Notes under the pieces: model-generated
The model's input: the letters and a program-made list of their open reading frames with translations, nothing else
Told to the model about the DNA's origin: nothing
Database searches by the model: none
Assembly (NCBI GenBank): GCA_949292635.1
Contig: CASEZY010000005.1
Span: 1 to 64,000 of the forward strand
From: an uncultured Methanomassiliicoccales archaeon
Lineage (GTDB): Archaea; Thermoplasmatota; Thermoplasmata; Methanomassiliicoccales; Methanomethylophilaceae
Length of the DNA: 64,000 bases
Direction: 5' to 3'
Translations under genes and position numbers: made by a program
Part shown: positions 4,389-49,223 of the stretch, in pieces
Layout: every line of letters begins with the position of its first letter
How positions within the stretch are numbered: the stretch's first letter is position 1

Positions 4389-5009
4389 ATGGGAGATCCT
4401 AAATTCTCACGCAGGTCCTACGACACCCCCTCCCACCCCTGGCAGGGCGAGAGGATCAAGGCCGAGGTCGTCCTGGTCAATCAGTACGGCCTGAAGAACA
4501 AGACCGAGGTCTGGAAGGCCCAGTCCGTCCTGAGGAACTTCAGGAAGCAGGCAAGGGAGCTGCAGGCACGCCAGAGGGGTGGAGACCAGCAGGCTCAGAA
4601 GGAGGCCAACGACCTTATCGCCAAGTGCGGACGCATGGGAGTCCTGCCCCTGGAGGGAGCCACCCTCAATGACATCCTGGCACTCAACGCCGAGAACGTC
4701 CTGGGACGCAGGCTGCAGACCCTGGTCTTCGAGAAGGGCATGGCCTCCACCATCGGACAGGCCAGGCAGATGATCGTCCACGGACACATCTTCATGAACG
4801 GTCACAAGGTCACCGTGCCCGGATACATCGTCACCAGGAAGGAGGAGTCCTCCATTGAGTACAACCCCGCATCCCCGTTCACCGACGAGATGCACCCCAT
4901 GAGGATCTCCGCCGAGCAGGCAGCGGCCAACATGGCCGCCAAGGCCGCAGCCGCCAAGGCTGAGGAGCCCGCCGCCGAGGAGACCGCCGAGGAGACCAAG
5001 GAGGAGTGA
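4389..5009 (+). CDS. rps4: 30S ribosomal protein S4
   Basis: A 206-residue archaeal S4 (eukaryotic S9 family), a primary 16S rRNA-binding protein. The S4 RNA-binding domain is visible from about residue 105: [13 protein letters not shown], then [17 protein letters not shown]. The C-terminus is a low-complexity Ala/Glu tail from about residue 175. It lies 9 nt after rps13 and overlaps the rps11 region. Confidence 0.97.
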
Positions 5010-5011
5010 AG

Positions 5012-5401
5012 ATGGCCACACCTAAATGGGGAATCGCGAACATCTACGCCAGCTACAACAACATCATGATCACCCTGACCGACATCACCGGCGCCGAGAC
5101 CATCACCAAGGCCACCGGCGGAATGGTGGTCAAGCAGGCCAAGGACGAGTCCTCGCCCTATGCGGCCCAGAGGGCAGCCGAGAAGGTTGCCGAGGCCGCC
5201 AAGGAGAAGGAGTTCGTGGGCATCCATGTGAGGGTCCGTGCTCCCGGAGGCAACAAGTCCACCTCCCCCGGACCCGGCGCACAGGCCGCGATCCGTGCCC
5301 TCACCAGGGCCGGCCTGAAGATCGGTCGCATTGAGGATGTGACCCCGGTGCCCCACGACGGCACCAAGAAGAAGGGCGGACGCAGGGGACGCAGGGTCTG
5401 A
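5012..5401 (+). CDS. rps11: 30S ribosomal protein S11
   Basis: A 129-residue S11 (eukaryotic S14 family) of the small-subunit platform. Signatures are [21 protein letters not shown], and the [11 protein letters not shown] and GGRRGRRV tail motifs. ATG at 5012 gives the normal N-terminus; a GTG two codons earlier overlaps the S4 stop and is a weaker alternative. Third gene of the operon. Confidence 0.97.
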
Positions 5402-5413
5402 GGGGGTCCGGTC

Positions 5414-6247
5414 ATGGACATAGAGATACTCGAGATGGCGGAGAGGAAGTGCAGGTTCATCCTGAGGAACTCCACCCCCGCCATGGCGAATGCCCTCAGG
5501 AGGACCATGCTTTCCGACATACCGAAGATGGCCATCGACAAGGTGGAGTTCCACCTGGGTCCCATCGACGTCAACGGAAAGGAGTTCGAGAGCATCACGC
5601 CCCTGTTCGACGAGATCATTGCCCACAGACTCGGAATGGTCCCGGTACCCACGGACCTGAACGCCTTCACCTTCCAGGACCAGTGCGTCTGCAACGGAGA
5701 GGGTTGCCCCAATTGCACCGTCATGTACAGCCTGAACAAGCACGGCCCCTGCACGGTGCTCTCCGGGGACATGGAGCCTCTGGGCTCCCCCGACCTCAAG
5801 GTCTGCGACCCGGACATCCCCATCGTGGAGCTTGCCGAGGGCCAGTCGGTCCTCATCTACGCCCACGCCGTGATGGGTACCGCCAGTAAGCATGTGAAGT
5901 GGCAGGTCGCCAACGGCGTCGGCTACAAGTACATGCCCACCGTGGAGATCGTCCGCGACGTGGACGAGCCCGCCCTGGTCATCGAGAAGTGCCCCAAGCA
6001 CGTCTTCGCCATGGAGGGCGGCCAGCTGGTGATCAAGAACCTCATCGACTGCATCACCTGCCGCAAGTGCGAGGAGATCACCCACGGTGAGATCAAGGTC
6101 GGTGCCATCGACACGGAGTTCGTCTTCAAGTTCGAGACCGACGGTTCCCTGACCGCACAGCAGGTGCTGGACAAGGCCGTACAGGTCCTCTCCGAGAACG
6201 CTAAGGATTTCGCCCAGCAGCTCGAGGAGAAGGCCGCCGCATTCTGA
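5414..6247 (+). CDS. rpoD: DNA-directed RNA polymerase subunit D
   Basis: A 277-residue archaeal RNAP subunit D (Rpb3/alpha homologue), the assembly platform with subunit L. The alpha motif at about 18-34 includes NALRRTML. Cys91, 93, 98 and 101 form a zinc-type site. Cys193, 213, 216 and 219 form a ferredoxin-like domain able to hold one 4Fe-4S cluster, as known in D subunits of several archaea. Last gene of the r-protein operon. The partners that often follow elsewhere (L18e, L13, S9) are absent here. Confidence 0.96.
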   Translation: MDIEILEMAERKCRFILRNSTPAMANALRRTMLSDIPKMAIDKVEFHLGPIDVNGKEFESITPLFDEIIAHRLGMVPVPTDLNAFTFQDQCVCNGEGCPNCTVMYSLNKHGPCTVLSGDMEPLGSPDLKVCDPDIPIVELAEGQSVLIYAHAVMGTASKHVKWQVANGVGYKYMPTVEIVRDVDEPALVIEKCPKHVFAMEGGQLVIKNLIDCITCRKCEEITHGEIKVGAIDTEFVFKFETDGSLTAQQVLDKAVQVLSENAKDFAQQLEEKAAAF

Positions 6248-42610: not shown

Positions 42611-43252
42611 ATGAGCGAGAAACTCGACGCACTTATCGACATTGTCGTGACCGGAAAGATGAAGCTTGCCAAGGACGCCACCCAGGCCTGCCTGGACGAG
42701 GGCATCGACGCCAAGACCATCATCTTCGACGGTCTGTCCAAGGCAATGGCAATCGTCGGTGACAAGTACGCTGCCAAGCAGTACTTCCTGCCCCAGGTCC
42801 TGCTGTCCGCCAACACCCTGTACCAGGGTCTGAACCTTTGCCTGCCTCTGCTCCAGGGAGACGGATCCGCCTCCAAGGGAACCGTCGTCCTCGCCGTCGT
42901 CGAGGGAGATGTCCACGACATCGGCAAGAACATCGTCAAGGCCATGCTGACCGGTCTCGGACTGAACGTCATCGACCTCGGAAAGGATGTCCCCATCAAG
43001 GACCTGATCGCCTCCGCTCAGGAGAACGACGCAGCCATCATCGCTGAGTCCACCCTGATGACCCCCACCCTCGCCGGCATGAAGCAGTGCGAGGCTGACC
43101 TGAAGGAGAACGGCCTGAAGGGCAAGATCAAGACCATGATCGGCGGCGGAGCTACCTCCAAGGAGTTCGCCGAGCAGATCGGTGCCGACGGCTGGTCCTA
43201 CGACGCAGTCGAGGCTTCCCACCTGGCCGCGAACATCCTCGGCATCGAGTGA
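42611..43252 (+). CDS. Methyltransferase corrinoid protein (MtbC/MtsB-like)
   Basis: A 213-residue corrinoid methyl carrier. The N-terminal helical cap covers residues 1-88, and the Rossmann-type B12 domain follows. Cobalt is coordinated by His102 in Asp100-x-His102-x-x-Gly105 (GDVHDIGKN); STLMTP (147-152) and GGGAT (178-182) contact the corrinoid. Length and motifs are normal for the family. The substrate (methylamines, methanol or methyl sulfides) cannot be assigned: no MttB, MtbB, MtmB or MtaB is nearby. The closest partners are the ASKHA protein and the CoM methyltransferase downstream. Confidence 0.9.
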   Translation: MSEKLDALIDIVVTGKMKLAKDATQACLDEGIDAKTIIFDGLSKAMAIVGDKYAAKQYFLPQVLLSANTLYQGLNLCLPLLQGDGSASKGTVVLAVVEGDVHDIGKNIVKAMLTGLGLNVIDLGKDVPIKDLIASAQENDAAIIAESTLMTPTLAGMKQCEADLKENGLKGKIKTMIGGGATSKEFAEQIGADGWSYDAVEASHLAANILGIE

Positions 43253-43633
43253 TCTCACTGATCCCGAAGGGATACTCCCAAACCACTTTCCTTTCAACCT
43301 TTTACTCTGACACGGGGTCTGGCATGCCATCGCCGGATCCCACACCGTTCTTCCGTTCGTTCCCGTCATCGCGATCCCATCGTCTCCGTGTACATCCGAT
43401 ACAGATCCGGTGCTATTTTGGGATGATTTCTTGCTTAACAATCCTTATTTCTATGATAGGATATAGTGGAACAATGTTACATAATTTAGGTAAAAAATAC
43501 AAATTGTTTTACAAACATCACTTAATAAACGCTGATTTACCGTATTATCTGGTTGTATTTACGACATACCGTATAACTTGGTTTTAGGAGGTTATACGGT
43601 AGTCTTTAATATCTCGTCATCATTGACAAAAAC
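43253..43633 (+). promoter_or_regulatory. 380-nt AT-rich intergenic region with inverted repeat
   Basis: ATCCC-GAA-GGGAT (43261-43273) followed by pyrimidine-rich sequence may terminate the corrinoid gene. The rest is AT-rich compared with its surroundings and has no credible gene. A perfect 11-bp inverted repeat TACCGTATAAC (43567-43577) and GTTATACGGTA (43591-43601), with a 13-nt spacer, ends next to the TATA-like TTTAATAT (43605-43612). A third half-site TACCGTATTA lies at 43539-43548. The TATA is about 26 nt before ATG 43634. The repeat is a strong operator candidate. Confidence 0.6.
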
Positions 43634-45847
43634 ATGGTACAAAGAGCCGATTACGACCAGTGGGTCCAGGATTGGATCCGCCAGGAGAAGGAAGGCGGGC
43701 GCAAATGCTTCGATGTGAAGAAGTCGGGCAATTCCTACTACGTCTATTATCAGACCACCAGGTACAACTCGGTGACCAAGAAGAGGGAGAAGGTCTCCGG
43801 ATATCTGGGCAAACTGGTGGAGGGTGTGGGTCTCGTTGAACCGGATACCTACAGCGAGGACGACGAGAGCGTCACCACCGCGAGGTACGGTCTGGGCATC
43901 GACACCGGCGGTTCCTTCACCGACGCGGTCATCGTCGACCTGGATGACAACTCCGTGGTGGCGAAGAGGAAGTCCCCCACCACTCATCACGACCTTTCAA
44001 TTGGCCTGTACAACTCCGTGGATGCGGTCTTCGCGTCCTGCGACATAAAACCCTCGGACATCAGCCTGGTGGGGATCTCCACGACATTGGCCACCAACTC
44101 CGTCCTGGAAGGGCACGGGGGAGAGGTGGGTCTGATCCTCATCGGGTGGAAGCCCGGGGAGGGCGCGGACTTCGGCGAGAAGCACAGGGTCACCGTCCGC
44201 GGCGGGTTCACCAGCACCGGCAAGGCCATCGCCGCCATGTCCAAGGACGAGGTGGTGGAGGCGATCAAGAAGGTGTCCGACGGCGTGGACGCCATCGCCA
44301 TCTCCGGACTGTTCTCCGTGGCCAACTCCACCCAGGAGGAGAAGGTGAAGGAGCTCGCCAGGAAGATGACCGGTCTGCCCGTCATCACCGGTCACGAGCT
44401 CTCCGCCGCACTCGGCATCGACCTGAGGGCGGAGACCGCCGTCCTGAACGGCCGTCTGATACCGATCGTCAGCAAGTTCTTCGACGATGTGGAGAGGACC
44501 TTCCGCGCCAAAGGCATCAACGCACCGATCATGGTGTACAAGGGGGACGGGTCCGTCATGGGATTGGATGAGGCAAGGCTGCACCCCATCGAGACCATCC
44601 TCTCCGGTCCCGCCGCCAGCGCCATGGGCGGCATGATCCTCTCCGGCTACGAGGACTGCGTGATGGTGGACATCGGCGGCACATCCACCGACATTGCGGT
44701 GATGGAGGGAGGCTTCCCCCAGATCCAGTACGAGGGTGCATCCATCGGCAGGTGGAGGACCCGCGTCAAGGCGGTGGACATGTACACCGTCGCTCTGGGT
44801 GGCGACTCCAAGATCTCCGTGTATGAGGGACAGAAGTTCATGCTGGGCCCCGATAGGGTGGTGCCGCTGTGCGTGTTCTCCGAGAAGCATCCCGACCTGC
44901 CGGAGAAGGTGCGCCACTCCGAGATCAGCGAGTACTACGAGACGGTGGACGATGCCGACACATCCTACCTGACCCCGAAGGAGAAGAGGATCTTCGACGC
45001 CATCCAGGGGAAGGGCGCATTGAACAAGATGGACATCGTGGACATCGTGGAAGGCCTCTGGGTCATAGACGACGAGCTGGCCTCCATGGTCAGGAAGGAG
45101 ATGCTGGTCATGTCCGCACTGACACCGACGGACGTCATGGTCTACAAGAAGATGTTCAAACTGGGCGACCCCAACGGCGCCGATGCCGGCGTCCAGGCGC
45201 TGGGGGCCAGGATGGGCATGACCAAGAAACAGGTGGCCGCGGCGGTCTTCGAGGAGATCAAGACCCAGGTCTGCGAGGTCATCATGACCAAGATGCTGGA
45301 CGACGAGATGAACCACTGGTACGGCGAGGGATCTAAGGTCTTGCTTAGAAGGCTTGCATCGGTGAAGAGGGGCGGCTCCATGGACATTGTCCCCAAGATG
45401 AACATGCCGGTGGTGGGCATCGGCGCACCCGCCCAGTTCATGATGGAGGACCTGGAGGAGAGGCTCAACGCCAAGGTGGTGTTCCCGGAGAACAACGACG
45501 TGGGTAACGCCGTGGGCGCCGTATCATCCAAGGTGGCGGAGTCGCTGTCGGCAACGATCGCCCCCACGCCGGACTACAGGTACATGGCCAACATCCCCTT
45601 CATGGGAGCGGCCTACTACACCCACCTGGACACTGCGGTGGCTGCAACCCGCAGATGGCTGGAGTCCTACCTCACCAAGAAGGTCGCCGACATGGGCGCC
45701 ACGAACATCCGCACCTCCTCGAAGATCAAGACCTACATGGCCACCGAGGGCGGTGTGGGCGATTGGGAGGAGGAGTCCATCGCCAGGACGGTCAACTTCG
45801 TGGAAGTGGTCTCCCGCGCCGTGGGCAATCCGCCGGAGAACATCTGA
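43634..45847 (+). CDS. Hydantoinase/oxoprolinase-family (HyuA-like) ASKHA protein with transposase-like N-terminus
   Basis: A 737-residue protein. Residues about 86-690 match HyuA-type ASKHA proteins: phosphate-1 loop IDTGGSFTDA (89-98), SPTTHHDLS, ISTTLATNS, ILSGPAAS, and phosphate-2 VDIGGTSTD near 344-352. Family members hydrolyse hydantoins or 5-oxoproline with ATP; distantly related ASKHA proteins reactivate corrinoid enzymes. Residues 1-70 are extra: the pattern YYVYYQTTRYNSVTKKREKV followed by GYLGKL resembles the N-terminus of IS1634/IS4-type transposases. Its place between a corrinoid protein and a CoM methyltransferase suggests a role in methyl transfer, which is inference. Confidence 0.8.
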   Translation: MVQRADYDQWVQDWIRQEKEGGRKCFDVKKSGNSYYVYYQTTRYNSVTKKREKVSGYLGKLVEGVGLVEPDTYSEDDESVTTARYGLGIDTGGSFTDAVIVDLDDNSVVAKRKSPTTHHDLSIGLYNSVDAVFASCDIKPSDISLVGISTTLATNSVLEGHGGEVGLILIGWKPGEGADFGEKHRVTVRGGFTSTGKAIAAMSKDEVVEAIKKVSDGVDAIAISGLFSVANSTQEEKVKELARKMTGLPVITGHELSAALGIDLRAETAVLNGRLIPIVSKFFDDVERTFRAKGINAPIMVYKGDGSVMGLDEARLHPIETILSGPAASAMGGMILSGYEDCVMVDIGGTSTDIAVMEGGFPQIQYEGASIGRWRTRVKAVDMYTVALGGDSKISVYEGQKFMLGPDRVVPLCVFSEKHPDLPEKVRHSEISEYYETVDDADTSYLTPKEKRIFDAIQGKGALNKMDIVDIVEGLWVIDDELASMVRKEMLVMSALTPTDVMVYKKMFKLGDPNGADAGVQALGARMGMTKKQVAAAVFEEIKTQVCEVIMTKMLDDEMNHWYGEGSKVLLRRLASVKRGGSMDIVPKMNMPVVGIGAPAQFMMEDLEERLNAKVVFPENNDVGNAVGAVSSKVAESLSATIAPTPDYRYMANIPFMGAAYYTHLDTAVAATRRWLESYLTKKVADMGATNIRTSSKIKTYMATEGGVGDWEEESIARTVNFVEVVSRAVGNPPENI

Positions 45848-45883
45848 GACCGGGTCTCCCGGCATTTCGTTACCTCCAAACAA

Positions 45884-45904
45884 AAGGGGTCCTACGGACC
45901 CCTT
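45884..45904 (+). terminator. Hairpin terminator after the HyuA-like gene
   Basis: AAGGGGTCC-TAC-GGACCCCTT is a perfect 9-bp stem with a 3-nt loop, followed by AACTTAAC. It separates the HyuA-like gene from the CoM methyltransferase gene, which has its own promoter. Confidence 0.6.
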
Positions 45905-45965
45905 AACTTAACACCCCGCACACCCCGCCATATCCTTTTTCCTACCTGATAGGGCGGGTAGGGAT

Positions 45966-46012
45966 GATTATATAGAATGTACTCCATCCGCCAACCAAGG
46001 AGAGATATAACA
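45966..46012 (+). promoter_or_regulatory. Promoter and ribosome binding site of the CoM methyltransferase gene
   Basis: GATTATATAG (45966-45975) is a good TATA box and predicts transcription from about 45997. The strong ribosome binding site AAGGAGAG (45998-46005) precedes ATG 46013. Confidence 0.6.
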
Positions 46013-47041
46013 ATGTCTATGACTCCCAGAGAAAGAGTGCTCGCAGCGATGAGGAAGGAGAAGCTGGACAGGCCCCCCGTGGCAGTGTTCACCCAGTCCG
46101 CCACCATCGGACAGATGGACGCCGTCGGATGCGCCTGGCCCGAGGCACACTCTGACGCCAAGATGATGGCCAAGCTCGGTGCCGCTCAGGCAACCGTCTT
46201 CGGCTTCGAGGCCGTCAGGTCCTCCTTCTGCCTCACCGCAGAGGCTGAGAGGCTCGGATGCGTCGTCGACCCCGGAAAGAAGGACAGGACCCCCATGCTG
46301 AAGAAGCACCCCTTCAACTTCGACCCCATGTCCGACGTTTACGACGAGCCCAACCTGATGGACCCCGAGGAGTTCATCAAGGGAGGCCGCCCCGCTACCA
46401 TCATCGAGGCCACCAGGCTCATGGCCGACGAGTACGGCAAGGACTACGCCGTCATCGCCGGTAACACCGGACCCTTCACCCTGGCCGGACACATGGTCTC
46501 CACCGAGAACCTGGTCTTTGGTATCATGATGAACCCCGATGAGGTCCACAAGTGGATCGCCGCGGTGAACCCCATCGTCAAGGCCTACTCCCAGGCTCTG
46601 TCCGACGCCGGCGCAGACATCATCCAGATGTCCGAGCCCTCGTCCTCCACCGACCTGCTGTCCCCTGACATGTTCACCGAGTACTCCGGTGACTACGTCA
46701 AGGAGTCCCTGGCCTCCGTCAAGGACGCCTACTCCGTGCTGCACATCTGCGGTGACACCTCCGCTATCCTGCCTCTGATGGCAGACACCGGCGTCACCGG
46801 ATGCTCCATCGAGGAGAAGGTCGACTCCGCCGAGGCTGTCAAGATCAACAACGGACGCGTCGCACTGGTCGGTAACATCGGTGTGGTCTTCCCTCTGCTG
46901 CAGGGAACCCCCGACGACTGCGCTGCAGCCGCCAAGAGGATCGCCGACGCCGGGTTCAACATCATCTCCCCCGGATGCGGTCTGTCCGCTCTGATCGCTG
47001 ACGACAACCTGAAGGCAGTCGTGAAGGCAATCAAGGGATGA
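46013..47041 (+). CDS. Methylcobamide:coenzyme M methyltransferase (MtaA/MtbA/MtsA family)
   Basis: A 342-residue protein of the uroporphyrinogen decarboxylase fold. The thiol-activating zinc ligands of the family are present: His244 and Cys246 in HICGDTS, and Cys322 in SPGCGLS. It moves the methyl group from a corrinoid protein to coenzyme M, giving methyl-CoM for methanogenesis. MtbA (methylamines), MtaA (methanol) and MtsA (methyl sulfides) share this pattern, so the subtype is open. It has its own promoter and strong RBS, consistent with high expression. Confidence 0.88.
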   Translation: MSMTPRERVLAAMRKEKLDRPPVAVFTQSATIGQMDAVGCAWPEAHSDAKMMAKLGAAQATVFGFEAVRSSFCLTAEAERLGCVVDPGKKDRTPMLKKHPFNFDPMSDVYDEPNLMDPEEFIKGGRPATIIEATRLMADEYGKDYAVIAGNTGPFTLAGHMVSTENLVFGIMMNPDEVHKWIAAVNPIVKAYSQALSDAGADIIQMSEPSSSTDLLSPDMFTEYSGDYVKESLASVKDAYSVLHICGDTSAILPLMADTGVTGCSIEEKVDSAEAVKINNGRVALVGNIGVVFPLLQGTPDDCAAAAKRIADAGFNIISPGCGLSALIADDNLKAVVKAIKG

Positions 47042-48290: not shown

Positions 48291-49223
48291 TCATTCCCTG
48301 ATGTGGCTGGAGAACAGCTCCTTCATATCCACCACGCCGATGGCCGCGATGACCGTGCCGTCATAGTCGATGGGCGTACAGATGACCCTGATCCCCTTGT
48401 ACGGGCCGGATTCCGCCACCTTCCTCACGGTCTTGCCGGTCTGTATCGCCTCCTCCAGCGCCTGGCCGTCGTAGAGGTTGTCGATGACCATGCCGTCCTC
48501 GATCCTGATGCCCAGGTTGTTCCTGCGCTTGGCACATACCGGGAGCTCGCCCACAAGCTCGTGGACGGCGAAGCACATGGAGACCAGCTCGTCGTTGGTC
48601 TGTCCGGACAGGCTGAATCTTGCCTCGGCGCTGAACTTGATGCCGCCTATGAGTGCCAGACCCACGCTGACCGCGCCCATCTCCGCCGCCTCGGGGGTCC
48701 TGGCGGTACCGACGACGATAACGTCGTCCGCCCTCAGGCGGAATATCCGGCGGAGGATCTCCTCGGATTCGCGATCCACCTCCTGGTTGGTGCCGGGGAA
48801 CCTTACGTGACCGTCGGTGTAGACCAGGGTGGTGGCTCCGGCGGCACCGCTCTTGATGGCGGCATCGGTCTCCTCCCTGCCGTAGCGGATCTTTTTGGAT
48901 GCGAAGGGTATCCTGATGGCGCAGTCGCAGTCGCTTATGGTCAGCCTGCCGAGATCGATGTGCGCCACGTCCATGGCTATCCGGTTGCGGACCTTCTGTC
49001 CCTCCTCGGACAGGTAGATGCCGGTCTTGTTGGTGAACGTGCATCCGTTGCGCTCCAGGACGCCCAGCAGGGTGCGGGTGCTGCCCTCGCCTATGTCCAA
49101 CTCCTCGGACAGCCTCTTGCGTCCGATTCCGGAGCTCGGATCCAGTGTTATCAGGGCCTTCCAGAGGTGATAATCAGTGAATTTCGCCGCCGCTCCCGTA
49201 CGGTATCCGTTACCGCTGCGCAT
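48291..49223 (-). CDS. Winged-helix transcriptional regulator with DUF2111-type sensor domain
   Basis: A 310-residue protein. The N-terminal winged helix (about 15-70) resembles DUF4443 HTH domains (GIGRKRLSEELDIGEGSTRTLL). A middle alpha/beta domain follows, and the C-terminus (about 205-300) matches DUF2111 (CAKRRNNLGIRIEDGMVIDNLY, TVIAAIGVVD), found in methanogen proteins with a GAF-like look. It is divergent from atwA, so control of the MCR-activation operon or of itself is likely but not shown. TATA about 49246-49254, leaderless. Confidence 0.75.
   Translation of the reverse strand: MRSGNGYRTGAAAKFTDYHLWKALITLDPSSGIGRKRLSEELDIGEGSTRTLLGVLERNGCTFTNKTGIYLSEEGQKVRNRIAMDVAHIDLGRLTISDCDCAIRIPFASKKIRYGREETDAAIKSGAAGATTLVYTDGHVRFPGTNQEVDRESEEILRRIFRLRADDVIVVGTARTPEAAEMGAVSVGLALIGGIKFSAEARFSLSGQTNDELVSMCFAVHELVGELPVCAKRRNNLGIRIEDGMVIDNLYDGQALEEAIQTGKTVRKVAESGPYKGIRVICTPIDYDGTVIAAIGVVDMKELFSSHIRE

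Follow-up and report, generated by a model that had tools for sequence, protein, structure and literature searches.

Three-component corrinoid methyltransferases feed both methylotrophic methanogenesis and acetogenesis. HyuA-type ATPases recur near the corrinoid methyltransferases of distant organisms, and no function is assigned to them in the papers we found; nor did we find in that literature any functional work on a hydantoinase-, HyuA- or oxoprolinase-type protein together with a corrinoid. In Methanosarcina acetivorans, the predicted hydantoinases MA4395-4396 are located near mtsF and mtaCB2 (PMC11619418), and the DCMF glycine betaine cluster includes a HyuA-like gene, "HydA", among the MtgB, MtgC and MtgA genes, where it is listed as unknown (PMC9768040). 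MttB-type methyl transfer has been reconstituted in vitro with MT1, the corrinoid protein, MT2 and RamQ only (PMC12155760); the HyuA-like protein is thus not needed for catalysis there, and its role would be one of maintenance or sensing. If such an ATPase does maintain or sense the corrinoid protein, it would be a missing part of many pathways.

The window considered here, a 64,000-nucleotide stretch of a Methanomassiliicoccales genome, contains a HyuA-like gene between genes for a corrinoid protein and a coenzyme M methyltransferase. The features are as follows.

42611-43252, plus strand: CORR1, methyltransferase corrinoid protein, 213 residues, B12-binding_2 and B12-binding domains, DxHxxG motif with H102
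43567-43601, no strand: operator of HYUA1, inverted half-sites GTTATACGGTA at 43567-43577 (minus) and 43591-43601 (plus), 13-nt spacer
43605-43612, plus strand: putative TATA-like box TTTAATAT immediately after the operator, recognised by eye
43634-45847, plus strand: HYUA1, HyuA-type ASKHA protein and predicted ATPase, 737 residues, Hydant_A_N and Hydantoinase_A domains
43634-43879, plus strand: N-terminal extension of HYUA1 (residues 1-82, best conserved over 8-70), proposed DNA-binding domain
43901-43924, plus strand: ASKHA phosphate-1-type motif DTGGSFTD of HYUA1, residues 90-97
44669-44692, plus strand: ASKHA phosphate-2-type motif DIGGTSTD of HYUA1, residues 346-353
45884-45904, no strand: GC-rich, terminator-like hairpin of 9 bp after the HYUA1 stop codon, absent in the genome G117
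46013-47041, plus strand: MTAA1, MtaA-type methylcobamide:CoM methyltransferase, URO-D, MtaA/CmuA family; reading frame opens at 45977, likely start ATG 46013

All three reading frames (42611-43252, 43634-45847 and 45977-47041) match known families far above chance level in profile and domain searches, so the genes proposed in the preliminary description of this DNA are real. Its residue assignments are correct as well. In CORR1 the corrinoid ligand is H102 of the DxHxxG motif, with D100 as the motif aspartate, and the nearest solved relatives are the trimethylamine, methanol and monomethylamine corrinoid proteins. The zinc ligands of MTAA1, an H-x-C pair and a further cysteine, are intact, being H244, C246 and C322 when counted from the likelier start at 46013, or H256, C258 and C334 from the ATG at 45977. 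As that description also stated, no substrate methyltransferase is encoded in the cluster, and the three-gene arrangement appears undescribed.

The genome (1.48 Mb, 99.9% complete) encodes four corrinoid proteins: CORR1, CORR2 on contig C6, and two MtaC-like proteins on contigs C8 and C11. Beside the C11 mtaC gene are an MtaB-like gene, recognised by eye, and a gene for RamA, which scores 737 bits against TIGR04270 and has both a RACo_C_ter ASKHA domain and a [4Fe-4S] domain. A search of the whole genome gave no match to MtmB or MtbB, and for MttB only a 16.6-bit match, below the cut-off.

Across 147 Methanomassiliicoccales genomes, HyuA-like proteins were found in 132, homologs of the corrinoid protein in 144 and MtaA-family homologs in all 147. 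The adjacency of the three genes is conserved, with CORR1, HYUA1 and MTAA1 lying within 5 kb of each other in 39 of the 147 (families f1, f2, f3 and f6). Close orthologs of HYUA1 and CORR1, as called by bit score, occur together in 64 genomes, one without the other in 3 and 5, and neither in 75, counts that are not phylogenetically independent given the shared ancestry of the genomes. HYUA1 is distant from CORR1 in family f5 and in some f6 genomes. The gene for RamA often stands beside the triad, and it follows MTAA1 in several families and also in genus g8. Several genera without CORR1 and HYUA1 have kept MTAA1, still beside a phosphoesterase gene, and in several of these a McrB-like reading frame (identified by eye) then comes after MTAA1. 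At five loci (L067, L075, L078, L079 and L080) MTAA1 is between the phosphoesterase gene and a DUF169-like and a McrB-like gene, the latter two recognised by eye. We looked for a hidden substrate methyltransferase in the gap between CORR1 and HYUA1 of relatives; the gap genes encode membrane proteins, ArsR-type regulators and unrelated products, and no MtxB was recognised among them.

A scan of 84,980 species yielded at least 569 confirmed relatives of HYUA1; we retained the 80 best, and 59 of those come from outside the Methanomassiliicoccales. Corrinoid methyltransferase genes lie within 5 kb at 27 of these 59 loci, and at 16 one of them is the immediate same-strand neighbour; the other 32 relatives have no such gene nearby. 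Over the same 59 loci from the best-80 set, corrinoid methyltransferase genes are about four times denser near the HyuA-like gene than further out. The partners vary: MttB/MtgB-type, MtrH/MeTr-type, URO-D/MtaA-type, RamA-type and fused Mts-like proteins are all represented. Both HyuA subfamilies of the Methanomassiliicoccales show the association, and in a quickly built tree, for which a single support value was computed, HYUA1 forms a clade of its own. The M. acetivorans pair MA4395-4396 (PMC11619418) and "HydA" of the betaine cluster (PMC9768040) fit this pattern. A DCMF homolog (L099) likewise adjoins a corrinoid gene. The homologs that we aligned, a set that does not include the exact "HydA" protein, lack the N-terminal domain of HYUA1. 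The changing methyltransferase partners argue against one dedicated substrate for the HyuA-like protein. A HyuA-like gene that is kept as its partners are exchanged suggests action on a common component, and the corrinoid protein would be the shared one.

Given relatives beside corrinoid methyltransferase genes at 27 of 59 loci, with varied partners, the likeliest role of HYUA1 is that of an accessory ATPase in corrinoid methyltransfer. We read the cluster as an old methylotrophy module in which MTAA1 is the general MtaA, CORR1 a carrier and HYUA1 the accessory ATPase, with autoregulation through the N-terminal domain in part of the Methanomethylophilaceae, and we give this reading a probability of roughly one half. 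In such a module the zinc methyltransferase MTAA1 would pass the methyl groups of corrinoid proteins on to coenzyme M, and CORR1 would be the corrinoid carrier partnering it, whatever the methyl donor may be. ATP-driven movement of its ASKHA lobes would allow HYUA1 to sense what state the corrinoid protein is in, or to maintain that state, acting perhaps on cofactor loading, on cofactor exchange or on release of the protein from an inactive form, and RamA would supply the electron that takes Co(II) to Co(I). The adjacency, the operator and the apparent novelty of the arrangement, all put forward in the preliminary description, stand, while its suggestions of an MtsA-like methyltransferase and of a HyuA-like protein that opens a cyclic amide or reduces Co(II) are not supported, for the reasons that follow.

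MTAA1 is best read as the general MtaA of the Methanomassiliicoccales, since its homologs form one order-wide clade near Methanosarcina MtaA and it is kept where CORR1 and HYUA1 have been lost. In the tree it groups with Methanosarcina MtaA (96/96), with two bacterial MtaA-like sequences placed between them on weak support (84/60). MtaA (PDB 4AY7) is its nearest characterised relative there, shares its family and zinc ligands, and gives a 220-bit match; MTAA1 differs in being linked to CORR1 and HYUA1 rather than to mtaCB. It scores 304 bits against the NCBIfam MtaA equivalog, whose cut-off is 400, and is for that reason filed as MtaA-type and not as the equivalog. Against the MtbA equivalog it scores 243 bits with a cut-off of 600, and Methanosarcina MtaA scores similarly (241). 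The possibility that MTAA1 is an MtbA serving distant methylamine genes, which the preliminary description had named as the case that would undo its proposal, is rejected for this genome, where no MtmB, MtbB or MttB passes the cut-off.

We considered whether MTAA1 might itself demethylate a methyl sulfide onto CORR1 and then methylate coenzyme M, in the manner of MtsBA and with HYUA1 assisting. Like MtsAB and MtsD/F/H, the cluster combines a corrinoid protein with an MtaA-family protein and has no MtxB partner; the genome has no methylamine MtxB, and CORR1 and MTAA1 lie within 6 kb of each other in 51 genomes. Homologs of mtsA and of mtsD/F/H have also been reported in the order (PMC10805028). 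We nevertheless consider this unlikely. MTAA1 clusters across the order near Methanosarcina MtaA and away from the Mts-like clade, in a tree whose Mts representatives are the Mts-like fused proteins of loci L141 and L148 and which does not include the M. barkeri MtsA and MtbA sequences. MTAA1 also survives beside the phosphoesterase gene after the loss of CORR1, and the Mts-like set of this genome is elsewhere, on contig C6. The pairs of CORR2-like proteins and MTAA1-derived methyltransferases at L071:2892-4579 and L072:2405-4077 possibly correspond to the mtsBA genes annotated in gut species.

The set on contig C6 (L013:6440-10640; G000 contig C6:61439-65639) comprises CORR2, a URO-D protein (UROD2), a small zinc-ribbon-like protein and a second HyuA-like protein, HYUA2. 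Loci L141 (Methanosarcina) and L148 encode fused corrinoid/URO-D proteins, and UROD2 groups (100/100) with their C-terminal halves. From their architecture we read these fused proteins as MtsD/F/H-like, with no characterised Mts sequence in the comparison. Both fused genes have a HyuA-like gene close by, as the window cluster does, but the fused proteins group with the C6 cluster and not with the window cluster. The C6 cluster thus resembles a split MtsD/F/H-like system and, because UROD2 joins the Mts-like fused proteins, it is the Mts-like set of this genome and the better candidate for methyl sulfide use. In other families, clusters of this type add a second corrinoid protein, a CobW GTPase, DGC-domain proteins and an HTH_10 regulator.

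The operator in front of HYUA1 consists of perfect 11-bp arms, TACCGTATAAC-N13-GTTATACGGTA, and ends 32 nt before the ATG; no such palindrome is expected by chance in 64 kb. With a slightly relaxed core, 9 of the 102 genomes of the family (genera g1, g2 and g12) each contain a single copy of the palindrome, always at HYUA1. Genus g8 has the half-sites as direct repeats, at about -48 and -21, on either side of a TATA-like stretch. That the HyuA-like gene has its own operator, as previously proposed, is accordingly well founded; its own terminator is weaker, as the T-rich tail that had been flagged sits on the minus strand and the hairpin at 45884-45904 is missing from the closest relative, G117.

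What is new here is that the half-site co-occurs with the N-terminal domain of HYUA1. This 82-residue extension is limited to some genera of the Methanomethylophilaceae: it is present in g1, g2, g5, g8 and g12, absent in g11 and g13 and in those f4 and f6 genomes that we examined, and most of the HyuA family lacks it. The half-site GTTATACGGTA, allowing at most one mismatch and within 150 nt, was found at the HYUA1 promoter of 18 of 20 genes with the domain and 0 of 9 without it, the window's own gene being excluded from the count. The N-terminal domain is most diverged in the two exceptions, G029 and G030, with 68-70% identity to the window protein as compared with 79-97% elsewhere, yet the ASKHA part of these two proteins is conserved to the same degree as that of their peers. 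The N-terminal domain is otherwise the best conserved part of HYUA1 (80%, versus 75, 60 and 51%), which is not so in these two. Its predicted fold has one helix and three main strands (pLDDT 77); it has no Pfam match and no Foldseek match below an E value of 0.001, and no known DNA-binding fold was matched. For an origin of the domain from a transposase there is a lead only, a weak similarity to two IS1634-type transposases (hhalign probability 28%).

This is the pattern that a DNA-binding autoregulator would leave, although it amounts to roughly a single gain and a single coupled loss, because the domain was gained within one set of genera. From these sequence patterns, HYUA1 may control its own gene by binding the half-sites through its N-terminal domain; having acquired that domain in some Methanomethylophilaceae, it would set its own level, whichever the direction of the control. 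The pairing of domain and operator makes this part of the HYUA1 question directly testable. A bolder idea, which we offer tentatively, is that HYUA1 combines maintenance and regulation in a new kind of factor, an ASKHA ATPase able to sense the state of a methyl-carrying corrinoid protein and to report it to its own promoter through a novel N-terminal DNA-binding domain, and that the wider HyuA-like family is a hitherto unrecognised component of bacterial and archaeal corrinoid methyltransferase systems.

Joint distribution of operator and N-terminal domain would also be expected if HYUA1 in these genera were chiefly a sensor and regulator, with an ASKHA and a DNA-binding domain laid out much as in the ROK repressors and with no direct action on the corrinoid protein. 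We think this improbable, as the domain is missing in most of the HyuA family and yet the gene still adjoins corrinoid methyltransferases. It is similarly improbable that the operator belongs to another regulator and that its match to the genera with the domain is coincidental. One such regulator might be the DUF4443/DUF2111 protein encoded at 48291-49223 on the minus strand, which has winged-helix-type matches at its N-terminus and is syntenic with the cluster in close relatives, but the palindrome occurs once per genome, at HYUA1 only, and the half-site is missing in both genomes with a diverged N-terminal domain.

The ASKHA motifs of HYUA1 are invariant across 19 aligned members of the family. 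Sequence matches to solved HyuA-type enzymes span about residues 87-408, and the predicted fold matches HyuA and acetone carboxylase beta over nearly the full length, and RACo weakly. HYUA1 thus shares Hydant_A_N, Hydantoinase_A and the overall fold with the HyuA proteins of hydantoinase, oxoprolinase, acetone carboxylase and caprolactamase, but differs from them in having no B subunit: Hydantoinase_B is absent from this genome and present in one of the 147 genomes of the order, which makes a HyuAB-type enzyme very unlikely. The single Hydantoinase_B gene is at G008:C29:24674-26218 (L168). Opening of an N-methylated cyclic amide, suggested previously, is rejected for want of the obligatory partner HyuB, and the present reading corrects an annotation that would suggest hydantoin metabolism in methanogens. 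HYUA1 has in common with RamA and RACo an ASKHA fold and an association with corrinoid methyltransferases; unlike them, it has HyuA-type architecture and, in a domain search, neither an Fe-S domain nor RACo_C_ter. Since RamA is separately encoded, and often adjacent, we also reject HYUA1 as a reductive activator, and with it the Co(II) reduction proposed earlier. MutL/GlmL, the ASKHA accessory protein of glutamate mutase, is a possible further parallel; the similarity is very weak (a short Pfam MutL match of 28.5 bits, just above the cut-off of 27), and the context of HYUA1 is methyltransfer rather than a mutase. That HYUA1 uses ATP to phosphorylate, and so activate, a small substrate is highly improbable. 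Its nearest solved structures, in fold as well as in sequence, are HyuAB, acetone carboxylase and caprolactamase, but the order almost entirely lacks the partner B subunit. Among 88 neighbour proteins scanned outside the order, Hydantoinase_B does not figure in the families that two or more of them match, and relatives of HYUA1 accompany systems with differing methyltransferases.

Two further observations concern other contigs of this genome. IS1634-family transposase genes, divergently oriented, adjoin both mtaC genes (C8, L015:6164-7678; C11, L016:8835-10367); they score 129 bits with a cut-off of 100, their N-termini weakly resemble the N-terminal domain of HYUA1, and they are possibly domesticated regulators. 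Contig C3 encodes two more URO-D-family proteins (L017:2937-3968 and 4552-5583), which adjoin transporter-like genes.
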